Below the pieces are notes generated by a model. That model did no database searches, was not told the DNA's origin, and saw nothing but the letters and a program-made list of their open reading frames with translations. This document shows positions 17,367-56,178 of a stretch of DNA of 64,000 nt, in pieces. Within the stretch, counting starts at the first letter, position 1, and every line of letters begins with the position of its first letter. The DNA is from Caldicellulosiruptor danielii (GTDB lineage Bacteria > Bacillota > Thermoanaerobacteria > Caldicellulosiruptorales > Caldicellulosiruptoraceae): NCBI RefSeq assembly GCF_034343125.1, contig NZ_CP139957.1:829001-893000 (forward strand). Direction: 5' to 3'. The translations under genes and the position numbers were made by a program.

Positions 17367-18101
17367 ATGAAACTTGAATCTAAGATGCTGCAGTATGTAT
17401 TGAAAGCCTTGGAAAAACTTGGTCTAAATCTTTCACAGAACCAGGTAATGGAAATTTTCTATGTTGGTGGGTGTGACACACTTCCGCCACCACTTACGCC
17501 TGATGAAGAAGCCCAGATTTTATACAGGATTCATTACCAAGGAGAAGAAGGATTAAAAAAGCTTTTGGTAGAAAGAAATTTGAGGTTGGTTGTCTACATT
17601 GCAAGAAGATTTGAAAATGCAAAGGTTAATCTTGAAGACCTTGTTTCAATAGGCACAATAGGTTTGATTAAAGCGATAAATACATACAATCCAAATAAGA
17701 ATATAAAACTTGCTACTTACGCCTCTAAATGTATAGAAAATGAGATTTTGATGTTTTTAAGGCGAAATTCAAATAAAAAGCTTGAACTATCGATAGACGA
17801 GCCGCTAAATGTTGACTGGGACGGCAATGAGCTTTTACTCTCTGATGTTCTGGGGACTGATACAGAGGAAATCTACAATAGAATTGAGAGTAATGTAGAA
17901 AAAGAAGCGCTTTTGCAGGCAATTCAAAAGCTTCCGTCAAGGGAAAAAAAGATTGTTGAACTGAGGTTTGGATTTGGAGATGAAGGAGAGAAGACTCAAA
18001 AAGAGGTTGCAGATATGCTTGGGATATCCCAAAGCTACATTTCTCGGTTAGAGAAAAAGATAATTACAAGATTAAAAAAAGAGCTGGCAAAGATTATATA
18101 A
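17367..18101 (+). CDS. sigE: RNA polymerase sporulation sigma factor SigE (pro-sigma-E)
   Basis: A 244-residue sigma-70 family factor with regions 2 to 4. The N-terminal about 30 residues, before [17 protein letters not shown], form the amphipathic pro-sequence removed by SpoIIGA. Region 2 shows [33 protein letters not shown]; region 4 ends with a helix-turn-helix ([21 protein letters not shown]). Sigma-E directs mother-cell gene expression after asymmetric division. ATG 17367 follows AAAGGAGGAG. It lies 23 bp after spoIIGA, in the classic spoIIG order. Confidence 0.95.
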
Positions 18102-18188
18102 TATGAAGATTTATTTCAGAATAATTGGCTTCTTCGAGGTTAATAATAAACCATAGCGCAAAGTTAAAAAAAGGGGGAGAAAATTAAT

Positions 18189-18956
18189 TTGAACAAGGTA
18201 GAAATTTGTGGTGTGAACACATCAACACTCCCCGTTTTGAGCCATGAAGAAAAATTTGAGCTTTTGAAGAGGATGAAAGAAGGAGACAAAGAAGCACGAA
18301 GAATTTTTATTGAGGGGAATTTAAGGCTTGTTTTGAGTGTTGTCCAAAAGTTTGCAAACAGGGGCGAGAACTTAGATGATTTGTTTCAGGTAGGTTGTAT
18401 TGGTCTTATAAAAGCAATTGATAATTTTGATCTTTCACAAAATGTCAAGTTCTCCACATATGCAGTGCCGATGATAATCGGGGAGATAAGAAGGTATTTG
18501 AGAGATAACAACTCTATGAGAATTTCAAGGTCGTTGAAAGACACAGCCTATAAAGCTTTGAAAATAAAAGAAAAGTATATAAATAAAAATCACAGAGAAC
18601 CAACATTGGAAGAAATAGCAAAAGAACTTTCAATCACCAAAGAAGAGCTTGTTTTTGCGCTTGATTCCATTCAGGAGCCGATATCTTTGTATGAACCTGT
18701 ATTTCAAGATAGCAGTGACACAATGTATGTTGTGGAAAAACTGTGCGACCAGAAATCATGCGAAAATGTTTGGCTTGAAGAGATATCATTGAAGGATGCT
18801 CTCAACAAACTGACAAAGCGTGAAAAAGTAATTCTGTATTTGCGTTATTACAAAGGAAAAACTCAGATGGAGGTAGCAAGAATTGTAGGAATTTCTCAGG
18901 CACAGGTGTCAAGAATTGAAAAAAGTGCAATAGGACATATCAAGAAGTATATCTAA
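18189..18956 (+). CDS. sigG: RNA polymerase sporulation sigma factor SigG
   Basis: A 255-residue sigma-70 family factor whose N-terminus MNKVEICGVNTSTLPVLS is characteristic of late forespore sigma-G. Regions 2 (NLRLVLSVVQKFANRGENLDDLFQVGCIGLIKAIDNF), 3, and 4 (GKTQMEVARIVGISQAQVSRIEK) are intact. The TTG start at 18189 follows AAGGGGGAG. Between sigE and sigG a weak sigma-F-like pair (GAATA at 18119, GGTTAATAAT at 18138) can be drawn; I do not rely on it. Confidence 0.95.
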   Translation: MNKVEICGVNTSTLPVLSHEEKFELLKRMKEGDKEARRIFIEGNLRLVLSVVQKFANRGENLDDLFQVGCIGLIKAIDNFDLSQNVKFSTYAVPMIIGEIRRYLRDNNSMRISRSLKDTAYKALKIKEKYINKNHREPTLEEIAKELSITKEELVFALDSIQEPISLYEPVFQDSSDTMYVVEKLCDQKSCENVWLEEISLKDALNKLTKREKVILYLRYYKGKTQMEVARIVGISQAQVSRIEKSAIGHIKKYI

Positions 18957-35533: not shown

Positions 35534-36885
35534 TTGCAATATTAAATGCAACACTTTTTTTGATGAAACTGGAAATTATAACTTGATTAAAGCAACAACT
35601 GTGTATGATATTAGTTGCCAATATATGCCAGCTTTTCTGTAGGAAAGCTGGCGGCTGCCATTTTGTACTATATTTTCCTCTGTCTATATAGCACTTCTTA
35701 TACCTCTACTAAAAACTTCTCTATTACCTCTGTTTCGCATATTTCCTTCATCTCCACTAAAAACCTTTCTATACTGCTCTTGTAGTTGAATATCCTCCTG
35801 GGAAGCCTGTTGTACCACTCTTGTATCCTCTTTATTGCTTCTTTCGATATCTCTCTTATTTCTTTACCCTTAGGTAAAAAACGCCTTATCAATCCATTCA
35901 TGCGCTCATTTGTTCCCCTCTCATACGCTGAATACGGATGTGTATAATATCCTTCAGAACCTAATTCATTTAAAACCTTCCCCAGCTCGCTAAATTCACT
36001 ACCATTGTCACTTGTCACACTTTTGAAAACTTTGTTAAATTTATCTCCCAATATTTTTTGAAGCTTTATAAACAAGTCTTTGACATAAGAACTTTCCCTG
36101 CCCGGTATAACAAATATCATTCCAAATCGAGTTTTTCTCTCTGTCAAAGTAACAAGTACATTATCCGAAGAACGCTTGCCAATCAAAGTATCTATTTCCC
36201 AATGCCCAAATTCTTCTCTGTTGTTTGCAACTTCAGGTCTCTCTTCTATACTTTTGCCTCTGGATTTGATTTTTGCTACTCTATACTTTATTTTTCTTGG
36301 CTTTAATCTAACTTTAACTGGCAAATCTATGTTCTTTACTCTTAACAATCCTCCTTCTATCCAATTGTATAGCGTCTTTGTACAAACCATTTCATCTTTG
36401 CTAAATCCAAGTTCCTGCCTACAATATCCAACTACTGCATCGGGCGACCATTTATCTTTCAGTATCTTTTCTTCTGCAAACTTTAAAAAGTTTTCAACCC
36501 CTAAAAGCTTACTCTTTCTACCACATTTTGCTCTGTTTTTTTCATACACAGCTTGACCTGTTTGAGCAAAGTATTTTTCAAATGTGCTCAGATCAGTTTT
36601 CATTTGAGTGGTTGTGCCTCTTTTCACTTCACGTGAAATTGTACTTGCACTTCTGCCTAATTCTCTGGCTATCCTTCTTATACCATACCCTAATTCTAAC
36701 AGCTTCTGTATAATTCCTCTCTCTACTTCACTTAAGTGTTTAAATTTTCTTCTCTTTGTGCTATGATTATCATAAGCCATAGCTTCAAACCTCCTGTGTA
36801 TGGTTTTGTCTTTTCAACTAATATCATACACAGTTTGAAGCTATGGCTTCAATATCTATTACCCCTGTTGCATTTAATTTTACAA
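35534..36885 (-). mobile_element. IS30-family insertion sequence
   Basis: Near-perfect terminal inverted repeats flank the transposase: a perfect 13-bp ATTAAATGCAACA at 35541-35553 with its complement at 36866-36878, extended to about 20 bp with two mismatches. A second, perfect 21-bp inverted repeat lies inside, at 35597-35617 and 36815-36835. The element is about 1.35 kb. Exact ends are uncertain: a GC(A)8-9TTT motif flanks both sides, but A-rich flanks are common here. A GCCAGCTTTTC hairpin (35627-35652) lies beyond the transposase 3' end. Confidence 0.85.
35698..36780 (-). CDS. IS30 family transposase
   Basis: A complete 360-residue DDE transposase. The N-terminal helix-turn-helix (ERGIIQKLLELGYGIRRIARELGRSASTISREVKRG, about 20-54) binds the ends. 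The integrase core has HWEIDTLIG (first Asp), TSDNGSEF (second Asp), and YERGTNERMNGLIRRFLPKG (the Glu), all typical of IS30. The start has a perfect AGGAGG 9 bp upstream. Nothing suggests decay, so the element may be active. It is transcribed opposite to rpoB. Confidence 0.95.
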   Translation of the reverse strand: MAYDNHSTKRRKFKHLSEVERGIIQKLLELGYGIRRIARELGRSASTISREVKRGTTTQMKTDLSTFEKYFAQTGQAVYEKNRAKCGRKSKLLGVENFLKFAEEKILKDKWSPDAVVGYCRQELGFSKDEMVCTKTLYNWIEGGLLRVKNIDLPVKVRLKPRKIKYRVAKIKSRGKSIEERPEVANNREEFGHWEIDTLIGKRSSDNVLVTLTERKTRFGMIFVIPGRESSYVKDLFIKLQKILGDKFNKVFKSVTSDNGSEFSELGKVLNELGSEGYYTHPYSAYERGTNERMNGLIRRFLPKGKEIREISKEAIKRIQEWYNRLPRRIFNYKSSIERFLVEMKEICETEVIEKFLVEV

Positions 36886-49130: not shown

Positions 49131-49135
49131 TCAAA

Positions 49136-49197
49136 AAAGCCCAAGCCTAAGGAAGAGAAGCTTTAAAGCTTTACAGACTTAGGTTTGGGCTTTTTTT
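49136..49197 (+). terminator. Terminator of the str operon
   Basis: AAAGCCCAAGCCTAAG and CTTAGGTTTGGGCTTT pair with one wobble, enclosing a second small hairpin (AAGCTTTAAAGCTT); seven T complete it. Confidence 0.92.
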
Positions 49198-55037: not shown

Positions 55038-55112
55038 ACTTTATGTATAGCAGTGGGTTTGGCAGGGAATAATAGTAAAAAAAGTTTGAGTACTCATGGG
55101 GGCCACAAGAAA

Positions 55113-55685
55113 ATGAAACTATATTTTAAAACTGCCACGCTCACTGCTATTATTATTTTCTTGTTCATAGTGTCGTTTGCAGTGGGGTTTACTATAACAT
55201 TAGAAAGAGGAAAAGTGAAGTCTGAAAAGGATATAAAAGGTAAAAATGTAACACAAATTGCATATATAAACAAGGGTATAGAAGGCAGGATAGCTAATAG
55301 TACTTTGTTTGTTGTAAGAAAATATTTTGAAGGATGTGGACATGTCATTGAAGAGAAAAAGTTAGTACCAAAAGAGTATGTAGGGATGTCAAAGCAAGAT
55401 TTTAAAAATATATTTGCCGGCTGGGAAATAGATGCGTTTAGCTCTAAGTATATAGTGATAAGCCGTGTATTTGATGGTTTTTGCCCCAACCATTTTATAA
55501 TTTCTATAAAAGACGGAAGAGTAGCTATATTTTATTCGCAACCTGTAGATGGTGATACTCTAAAGCTCATTACTCCAATTAGCATTGAAAACTTACCAGA
55601 ACAAGAGGTAAATGATTTAAAAAAAGGAATAGTGGTCAACTCGTTTGAAGATGCAATAAAGATAATTGAGGATTTTGGAAGTTAA
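55113..55685 (+). CDS. BofC-like C-terminal domain protein
   Basis: A protein of about 190 residues with a signal anchor near residues 5-27. LVPKEYVGMSKQDFKNIFAGWEIDAFSSKYIVISRVFDGFCPNHFIISIKDGRVAIFY matches the C-terminal domain of BofC, a forespore-secreted regulator of sigma-K processing in Bacillus. In Clostridia the domain occurs beside yebC without known function. ATG 55113 (GGGGG about 10 bp upstream) is preferred over GTG 55053. No sigK is seen in the window. Confidence 0.75.
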   Translation: MKLYFKTATLTAIIIFLFIVSFAVGFTITLERGKVKSEKDIKGKNVTQIAYINKGIEGRIANSTLFVVRKYFEGCGHVIEEKKLVPKEYVGMSKQDFKNIFAGWEIDAFSSKYIVISRVFDGFCPNHFIISIKDGRVAIFYSQPVDGDTLKLITPISIENLPEQEVNDLKKGIVVNSFEDAIKIIEDFGS

Positions 55686-55708
55686 AATATTTTATGTAAC
55701 ACAGTTTA

Positions 55709-55758
55709 CCCATAATTCATATTATGTTAATAGAAAAAGACATAATATGAATTATGGG
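55709..55758 (+). repeat. Perfect 19-bp inverted repeat in the leader of the Cys/His-rich gene
   Basis: CCCATAATTCATATTATGT (55709-55727) and ACATAATATGAATTATGGG (55740-55758) are exact complements across a 12-nt loop. The right arm ends with GGG, which begins the first ribosome-like site (GGGAGG, 55756-55761) of the gene at 55771. As RNA it would form a stable hairpin next to the ribosome site; as DNA it could be an operator. It has no T tail, so it does not look like a terminator for the preceding gene. Confidence 0.9.
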
Positions 55759-55770
55759 AGGTAGGAAGGT

Positions 55771-56133
55771 ATGTCTGAAGAACTGGATTTAAGGTATGAA
55801 GGTCACGAACACCACTGCCACGATATCTGTGAACACATGAAAAGATTTTTAGGAGAAACAGTTACAGTGTTTACAGAAAGCGGAGGAGAAAGCGGTCAAG
55901 GATTTACAGGAGTTTTAGCACTTGTTACACAAAGATTTATAAGGCTTATTGTAACAATAGGGACACCACCAGATGACCCATTCTGGTACAGAGGTTATGA
56001 CTCAAGAGAAGAGTTTGGCGAACATCATCGAAGAGAAAGATGCTGCCCGCCACGTAGAAGATTTTGCGGACTTGGTTCAATAGTTGACATTCCATGCAGG
56101 AAGATAGTTGCCTTTGTTCACAATGCTGTATAA
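55771..56133 (+). CDS. Unrecognised small Cys/His-rich protein
   Basis: A 120-residue soluble protein without signal peptide. The N-terminus has a His/Cys cluster (GHEHHCHDICEHMKRF), and the C-terminal part has HHRRERCCPPRRRFCGLGSIVDIPCRK. In between, LGETVTVFTESGGESGQGFTGVLALVTQRFIRLIVTIGTPP resembles spore-coat or exosporium-associated small proteins of Firmicutes in general style, but I cannot assign a family. Six cysteines and many histidines suggest metal binding or cross-linking. TAGGAAGG lies before the ATG; a hairpin controls the leader. Confidence 0.7.
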   Translation: MSEELDLRYEGHEHHCHDICEHMKRFLGETVTVFTESGGESGQGFTGVLALVTQRFIRLIVTIGTPPDDPFWYRGYDSREEFGEHHRRERCCPPRRRFCGLGSIVDIPCRKIVAFVHNAV

Positions 56134-56146
56134 AAAAGTATTGAGA

Positions 56147-56178
56147 GGCTGGCACAATTAAGACTGCCAGCCTTTACT
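56147..56178 (+). terminator. Terminator between convergent genes
   Basis: GGCTGGCA and TGCCAGCC form a stem across 10 nt, followed by TTTACTTT. It lies between the Cys/His-rich gene and the convergent FAH gene; the right arm begins at the end of the latter. Confidence 0.7.

Follow-up and report, generated by a model that had tools for sequence, protein, structure and literature searches.

A conserved hairpin across a predicted mother-cell promoter in Caldicellulosiruptor danielii, a candidate translational insulator against read-through RNA

The 64,000-nucleotide stretch of the Caldicellulosiruptor danielii genome analyzed here (contig NZ_CP139957.1, positions 829,001 to 893,000; hereafter, the window) carries, in this order and on the same strand, yebC, a bofC-like gene and a gene for a 120-amino acid protein, with a long perfect hairpin in the short gap between the last two (Table 1). 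The left arm of this hairpin contains the -10 box of a predicted promoter and the right arm runs into the ribosome-binding site of the 120-amino acid protein gene.

Table 1. Features of the bofC-hairpin region (positions in the window)
Feature	Position	Strand	Remarks
Predicted forespore (sigma-F/G type) bofC promoter, GTATA-N15-GGGAATAATA	55045-55074	+	Boxes identical in 12/12 sequences
bofC-like gene, co-directional	55113-55685	+	ATG at 55113 read from sequence; stop 23 bases before left arm
Predicted mother-cell promoter: GTAAC (-35), 17 bases, CATATTAT (-10, 55718-55725)	55696-55725	+	From published consensus and homologues
Hairpin left arm, CCCATAATTCATATTATGT	55709-55727	+	Holds the -10 box
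Hairpin loop, 12 nucleotides	55728-55739	+	Predicted transcript start at about 55731-55734, from the -10 position
Hairpin right arm, ACATAATATGAATTATGGG	55740-55758	+	First part of the short mRNA leader
Shine-Dalgarno sequence GGGAGG	55756-55761	+	GGG inside the stem
Gene for 120-amino acid protein, family unassigned, predicted Sm/SH3-like barrel	55771-56133	+	
Possible terminator past the gene: AGGCTGGCA / TGCCAGCCT stem, then TTACTTT	56146-56173	+	By sequence inspection; not called by the terminator scan

The arms of the hairpin are 100% complementary (19/19 pairs) at a spacing of 12 nucleotides, and among perfect stems with a loop of at most 60 nucleotides, this is the longest in the window. 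Among 200 first-order Markov copies of the window, stems of this kind reach 16 bp at most, and 178 of the copies contain none of 13 bp or longer; the z-score of the RNA fold is -5.5. The right arm terminates in the first GGG of the Shine-Dalgarno (SD) sequence GGGAGG, nine bases past which lies the ATG. The stem is AT-rich and is followed by AGGTAGG, without a T run, so that it does not qualify as an intrinsic terminator, and the terminator scan detected no terminator-like site on the plus strand between 54250 and 56300. The initial annotation of the locus described a perfect 19-bp inverted repeat, far beyond chance expectation, lacking a terminator tail and ending in the GGG of a ribosome site, and these points stand. 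A dispersed repeat, which that annotation named as an outcome that would undermine its case, is ruled out by a whole-genome search with the 18-mer of the left arm at up to 3 mismatches: apart from the two arms, there is one further site, with 3 mismatches. The search of Rfam yielded eight matches up to an E-value of 1, none near the gathering score.

The left arm includes CATATTAT, and the sequence GTAAC ends 17 bases upstream of it. In C. difficile, CATATTAT is the canonical -10 element of the mother-cell sigma factors and AC is the -35 element of sigma-K, according to an excerpt of Saujet et al. 2013 (PMC3789822). The motif G[TG][AC]AC-N15-17-CATAWWAT is located upstream of 31 of the 57 genes of the 120-amino acid protein family, including 20 of the 45 outside the genus, compared with a mean of 0.02 and a maximum of 1 in shuffled sequences; some of the 57 are paralogues or the second members of tandem pairs, and some start-codon calls in the homologue sets are wrong. 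The genome contains a match to the sigma-K gene over the family cut-off, and sigE- and sigG-like genes are found within the window. Transcripts start about seven bases past the -10 element, and the predicted start of the gene's own RNA should accordingly fall in the loop, leaving out the left arm. Because the left arm contains the predicted promoter, the native mRNA should not hold the hairpin.

The gene upstream matches the Pfam family BofC_C (E 4e-9, to the longer open reading frame (ORF) 55053-55685) and is preceded by GTATA-N15-GGGAATAATA, which we take to fit the forespore consensus; both boxes are identical in the 12 aligned sequences, namely, 11 copies from the genus and one from the genome G012, which represents a second genus of the family. 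Because there is no terminator-like site in the interval scanned, RNA that starts at the bofC promoter should traverse the hairpin. The 120-amino acid protein gene lies behind a co-directional gene that, by predicted timing, belongs to the other cell type, with no terminator-like site between them in the scan.

The genome sequences themselves show the two arms and the motifs of both promoters, the conservation of these elements, an interval in which no terminator-like site was detected and, in the second genus, a different stem with the same design. From these we infer, with a probability of about 0.6, that the hairpin acts as a translational insulator directed against read-through RNA. In the forespore, transcription of bofC would start at its own promoter, and the polymerase would continue across the short gap into the next gene. 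The long RNA, whether it comes from the bofC promoter or from yebC further upstream, would contain both arms and fold the stem against the ribosome site; it would be poorly translated, so that neither the forespore nor growing cells would make the protein. The sigma-K-type promoter would then fire in the mother cell, and the short RNA, starting in the loop and devoid of the left arm, would be unable to form the stem and would be translated.

The conservation of the hairpin is consistent with this proposal. In the 11 native copies from the genus, 18 of the 19 columns of each arm are invariant, compared with 3 of 12 in the loop and 350 of 573 in bofC, which shows that both arms are under constraint, as would fit RNA pairing or a DNA site alike. 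The initial annotation named as refuting its case a repeat that is upstream of the transcript start and is not conserved, and one half of this holds: the predicted start lies past one of the arms, but that arm is conserved. In the genome G002, the 120-amino acid protein gene, the adjacent three-ORF module and an FAA-hydrolase gene are duplicated in tandem (L030, 3530-13592); of the hairpin, the second gene copy (8681) retains only the right arm, the left arm being lost together with the promoter, with the junction within the loop. In the genome G006, the gene and the hairpin are both absent; past yebC, there is an apparent short bofC remnant with a forespore-type promoter that is still recognizable, with one base changed (L287, 1600-1830).

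G012 retains the order yebC-bofC-gene and the sequence GTAAC-N16-CATATTATGTTAATAG. The stem, AAACCTCCTATA / TATAGGAGGTTT, is different and covers the whole SD sequence AGGAGG. Only 26 of 20,000 dinucleotide shuffles of the promoter window pair as well in G012, and none of 20,000 do so for the whole stem of C. danielii. The predicted pairing of the SD sequence in G012 is 1.00 in the read-through RNA vs 0.41 in the own-start RNA at 37 °C (0.97 vs 0.21 at 75 °C), and for bases -16 to -5, the read-through RNA shows a large gain over shuffled promoter windows (0.98 vs 0.63). Judging by the sequences, the two genera have in common the promoter and a capacity for pairing with the ribosome site rather than the palindrome. 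A third stem, ACCTCTCCT / AGGAGAGGT, with the -10 element between the arms and the SD sequence in the right arm, is present in L020, a named record of a metagenome-assembled genome, where the upstream gene is co-directional and unrelated (it presumably encodes a branched-chain aminotransferase). The predicted SD pairing in L020 is 1.00 in read-through vs 0.29 in own-start RNA, and 219 of 20,000 shuffles pair as well (279 of 20,000 in its relative L022). The pairing of promoter windows was compared across 38 family genes; the rows for L012 and L013, which have a wrong start codon, are disregarded, as is L013 in the comparison of SD pairing. The seven genes preceded by a divergent ORF (L018, L041 in both directions, L056, L063, L082 and L087) display no strong pairing (lowest p 0.09). 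Within the genus, the predicted pairing of GGAGG in read-through vs own-start RNA is 0.65 vs 0.46 for the window and 0.50-0.53 vs 0.11-0.17 for L007, L010 and L011.

Several observations weigh against the insulator. The compensatory changes that the initial annotation proposed to look for were sought in the 11 genus copies, where two hairpin pairs vary: one copy has C-G changed to U-G, another has a broken pair, and no pair is changed on both sides. The genus stem takes in only the first GGG of the SD sequence, compared with the complete cover in G012 and L020, so that the block in the genus would be partly steric. For bases -16 to -5, the read-through RNA differs little from that with a shuffled promoter window in the genus (0.67 vs 0.57 in the window, 0.61 vs 0.60 in L015 and 0.57 vs 0.56 in L007). 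In L022 and L023, the own-start RNA leaves the SD sequence paired (0.76 vs 0.75 and 0.76 vs 0.86, respectively, for read-through vs own-start RNA), and pairing is lacking also in several co-directional Clostridium genes, such as L055, L064, L066, L075 and L081. The sigma-K match carries one in-frame stop in the matched stretch. Finally, sporulation is not observed in Caldicellulosiruptor, as stated in a passage of Galperin et al. (PMC3533761).

The ORF 55771-56133 is a genuine gene because it is conserved in 11 of the 12 genomes of the genus and in G012; the remaining 28 of the 41 relatives searched contain no match. The protein could not be assigned to any NCBIfam family, or to any Pfam family at the cut-off. 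The AlphaFold model combines a helix with a five-strand barrel (mean pLDDT 68, with the core above 90), and most of the Cys and His residues fall within the N-terminal stretch and a loop modelled at low confidence. A Foldseek search with this model returned nothing below an E-value of 0.001; the best weak matches include the Mnx complex of a Bacillus (E 0.004), Hfq and LSm proteins, and GerQ filaments (E 0.12). Mnx and GerQ are spore-surface proteins, and such a likeness of the predicted structure would suit a mother-cell gene. The initial annotation called the protein Cys/His-rich, which is correct for this protein itself and does not extend to the family: the invariant columns of the 17-row family alignment include no Cys and a single His (H117), with H22 nearly invariant in the 11-row alignment.

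The near-invariance of the arms would also be expected of a DNA operator, in which a dimeric regulator binds two near-palindromes, CATAAT-N4-ATTATG, one per arm, at a distance of about three helical turns, and thereby covers the promoter and the start site. Each arm is, indeed, nearly palindromic in itself, and the absence of double compensatory changes in the genus agrees with a DNA site. However, self-complementarity of the -10 box CATATTATG around one base means that any stem running through it takes on this appearance unaided; the genome harbors no other site within 2 mismatches; and G012 retains the promoter without the palindrome, its stem pairing with the SD sequence instead. We consider an operator unlikely. 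A role in RNA stability or processing, whereby the stem shields the 3' end of the bofC RNA or a cut at the stem separates the two messages, is quite unlikely as well: the stem is stable and in a read-through RNA would be located 23 bases past the bofC stop, but there is no T run, the match of the G012 stem to the SD sequence is left unexplained, and so is the joint loss of the gene and the hairpin in G006, although bofC, too, is a remnant there.

The initial annotation considered, besides a large DNA operator, an RNA switch that might respond to temperature or metals, given that the protein is rich in Cys and His; the position of the stem at the SD sequence of such a protein speaks for this idea. 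That the leader of the gene itself contains a sensor of this kind, be it a thermometer, a metal switch or a ligand switch, is highly improbable. The predicted mean pairing of the stem is 0.99 at 37 °C, 0.93 at 75 °C, 0.77 at 85 °C and 0.55 at 90 °C; a stem that is still folded at 75 °C fits a constant lock and is too stable for a thermometer. A metal sensor that relies on Cys and His is rejected given that these residues are not conserved in the family. Furthermore, the predicted transcript start is inside the loop, and no Rfam family scores above the gathering threshold. The notion of a hairpin guarding the ribosome site, thus, survives as a prediction, with the SD sequence abutted and partly covered, whereas its sensor versions do not.

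Leaders of this design have been described in phage T4 for gene e (lysozyme), as well as soc, 49 and I-TevI, in the relevant section of a review (PMC3014915). As set out there for gene e, the ribosome site is hidden in the long early RNA, and the RNA from the late promoter lacks the 5' strand of the structure, which encodes the promoter, and is translated; the difference is that the T4 structure serves phage timing and is established by experiment, whereas here cell type would be at stake and the case is inferential. In Bacillus subtilis, a hairpin that blocks read-through and cannot form in the own-promoter RNA was proposed for sigG in the spoIIGA-sigE-sigG cluster (Masuda 1988, as cited in a passage of Mearls 2018, PMC5942855); that is a forespore gene behind an operon transcribed earlier. 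By contrast, the C. danielii hairpin has the -10 element within the left arm and precedes a gene predicted to belong to the mother cell, whereas the gene upstream is predicted to belong to the forespore; as in these systems, the gene's own predicted promoter is in or behind the 5' arm. Together, the T4 gene e case and the sigG proposal indicate that the architecture is known and the hairpin would be a further example, contrary to the initial annotation, which was aware of no described element of this form. With regard to other sporulation genes, searches of the open-licence full-text literature showed sigG alone. The sigE- and sigG-like genes of the window are arranged in tandem (17367-18956), and the region before the sigG-like gene (18102-18188) contains no long inverted repeat among the 25 longest of 31, unlike in B. 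subtilis.

At the ends of the mobile elements IS10 and IS50, a stem in read-through RNA hides the ribosome site of the transposase gene, and the RNA from the internal promoter lacks the stem. The window contains an IS30-like transposase gene (35698-36849, minus strand; HTH_38 and a sub-threshold rve match), the SD sequence and start codon of which are buried in a long 5' stem (36774-36790 / 36833-36849, with an inner stem; z -7.7). This is possibly a mobile-element version of read-through protection, related to the IS10/IS50 case. A 64-base palindrome at 49133-49196, with 32-nucleotide arms that are 81% complementary and A and T runs at the ends, is perhaps a bidirectional terminator.

It is conceivable, although doubtful, that mother-cell promoters located behind a same-strand gene commonly evolve complementarity to the downstream ribosome site, as a general device of Clostridia so far undescribed. 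The pattern CCTCCN{1,18}CATAWWATN{14,40}GGAGG has 202 matches in 138 of 398 genomes (overlapping matches counted twice), compared with 55 in 48 genomes for the reversed control; with a scrambled -10 element, matches occur in 77 of 398 genomes, partly because the scramble overlaps the real ACATATTAT. Among the 29 of 30 real-pattern loci that were re-found, a gene starts after GGAGG in 15, a co-directional ORF lies upstream in 10, both apply to 7, and 16 are inside a long ORF; the respective numbers for the scrambled loci (26 of 27 re-found) are 9, 9, 7 and 4. With so many chance matches, the pattern route alone proves nothing. Striking single cases, by family, are gerPA/gerPF (L119), YunB (L101), DpaA (L135), CotJA (L137), LysM (L173) and D-Ala-D-Ala carboxypeptidase (L162), the last two coming from the scrambled set. 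Long SD-covering stems across mother-cell-type promoters are seen in other Clostridia in L101, L119, L135, L137 and L173 (around position 1500).

A separate comparison involved yabG, which is preceded by promoters of this type in many Clostridia and was matched in 173 of 329 genomes; the best 110 upstream regions by score were taken from a longer list, a promoter call together with a suitable control window was available for 86 of these, and 67 were left after thinning of similar sequences. The promoter window pairs better with its own leader than shuffles do: the median shuffle p is 0.213 (Kolmogorov-Smirnov (KS) p 6e-8; 14 of 67 below 0.05), compared with 0.50 (KS p 0.32; 8 of 67) for a control window 40 nucleotides upstream. 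Pairing is also better with the own leader than with leaders from other genomes, with 102 of 20,000 permutations in a composition-corrected swap test (the uncorrected test, with 0 of 5000, is confounded by G+C content). The difference in z between own and swapped leaders is -0.65 (p 0.013) for genes with a co-directional neighbor (n=23) and -0.10 (p 0.43) for those with a divergent neighbor (n=36), with p 0.034 between the classes, which were assigned by regular expressions written after the p ranking was seen, so that the split is not blind and leaves out 8 unclassified genes; an earlier automatic classification retained only 9 and 13 genes. The two lowest p values in the co-directional class belong to L203 and L259, where the upstream gene is presumably spoVT, a forespore regulator; the strongest single case overall, L185, has a divergent neighbor, which counts against a general rule. 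The predicted occlusion of the SD sequence does not exceed that with shuffled promoter windows, either in all 67 genes (0.53 vs 0.52) or in the co-directional ones (0.62 vs 0.58, p 0.24; n=23, a list slightly different from that of the regular-expression split). Because SD occlusion is not above that in the shuffles and the neighbor split is not blind, the general rule is suggestive only, the yabG data hinting that the device might be common at such promoters in Clostridia.

Spore formation depends on the synthesis of each protein in the appropriate cell of a pair with a common genome, which is laid out in co-directional gene runs, and the usual account of cell-type control is the specificity of sigma factors at promoters. 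A stem confined to the RNA of the wrong promoter would provide a further check, at the level of translation, and would be free of cost whenever the correct promoter is active. The gene described here is a candidate for such control in the mother cell, and a sister genus offers a natural case of stem replacement; given that sporulation is not observed in Caldicellulosiruptor, the strict conservation of the element is itself noteworthy. The signature, a promoter window complementary to its own ribosome site, is searchable, and transcript maps can test it. If the device is, indeed, general, developmental genes would be translated only from the RNA of their own promoters, and the fidelity of cell type would be enforced at translation as well as transcription.
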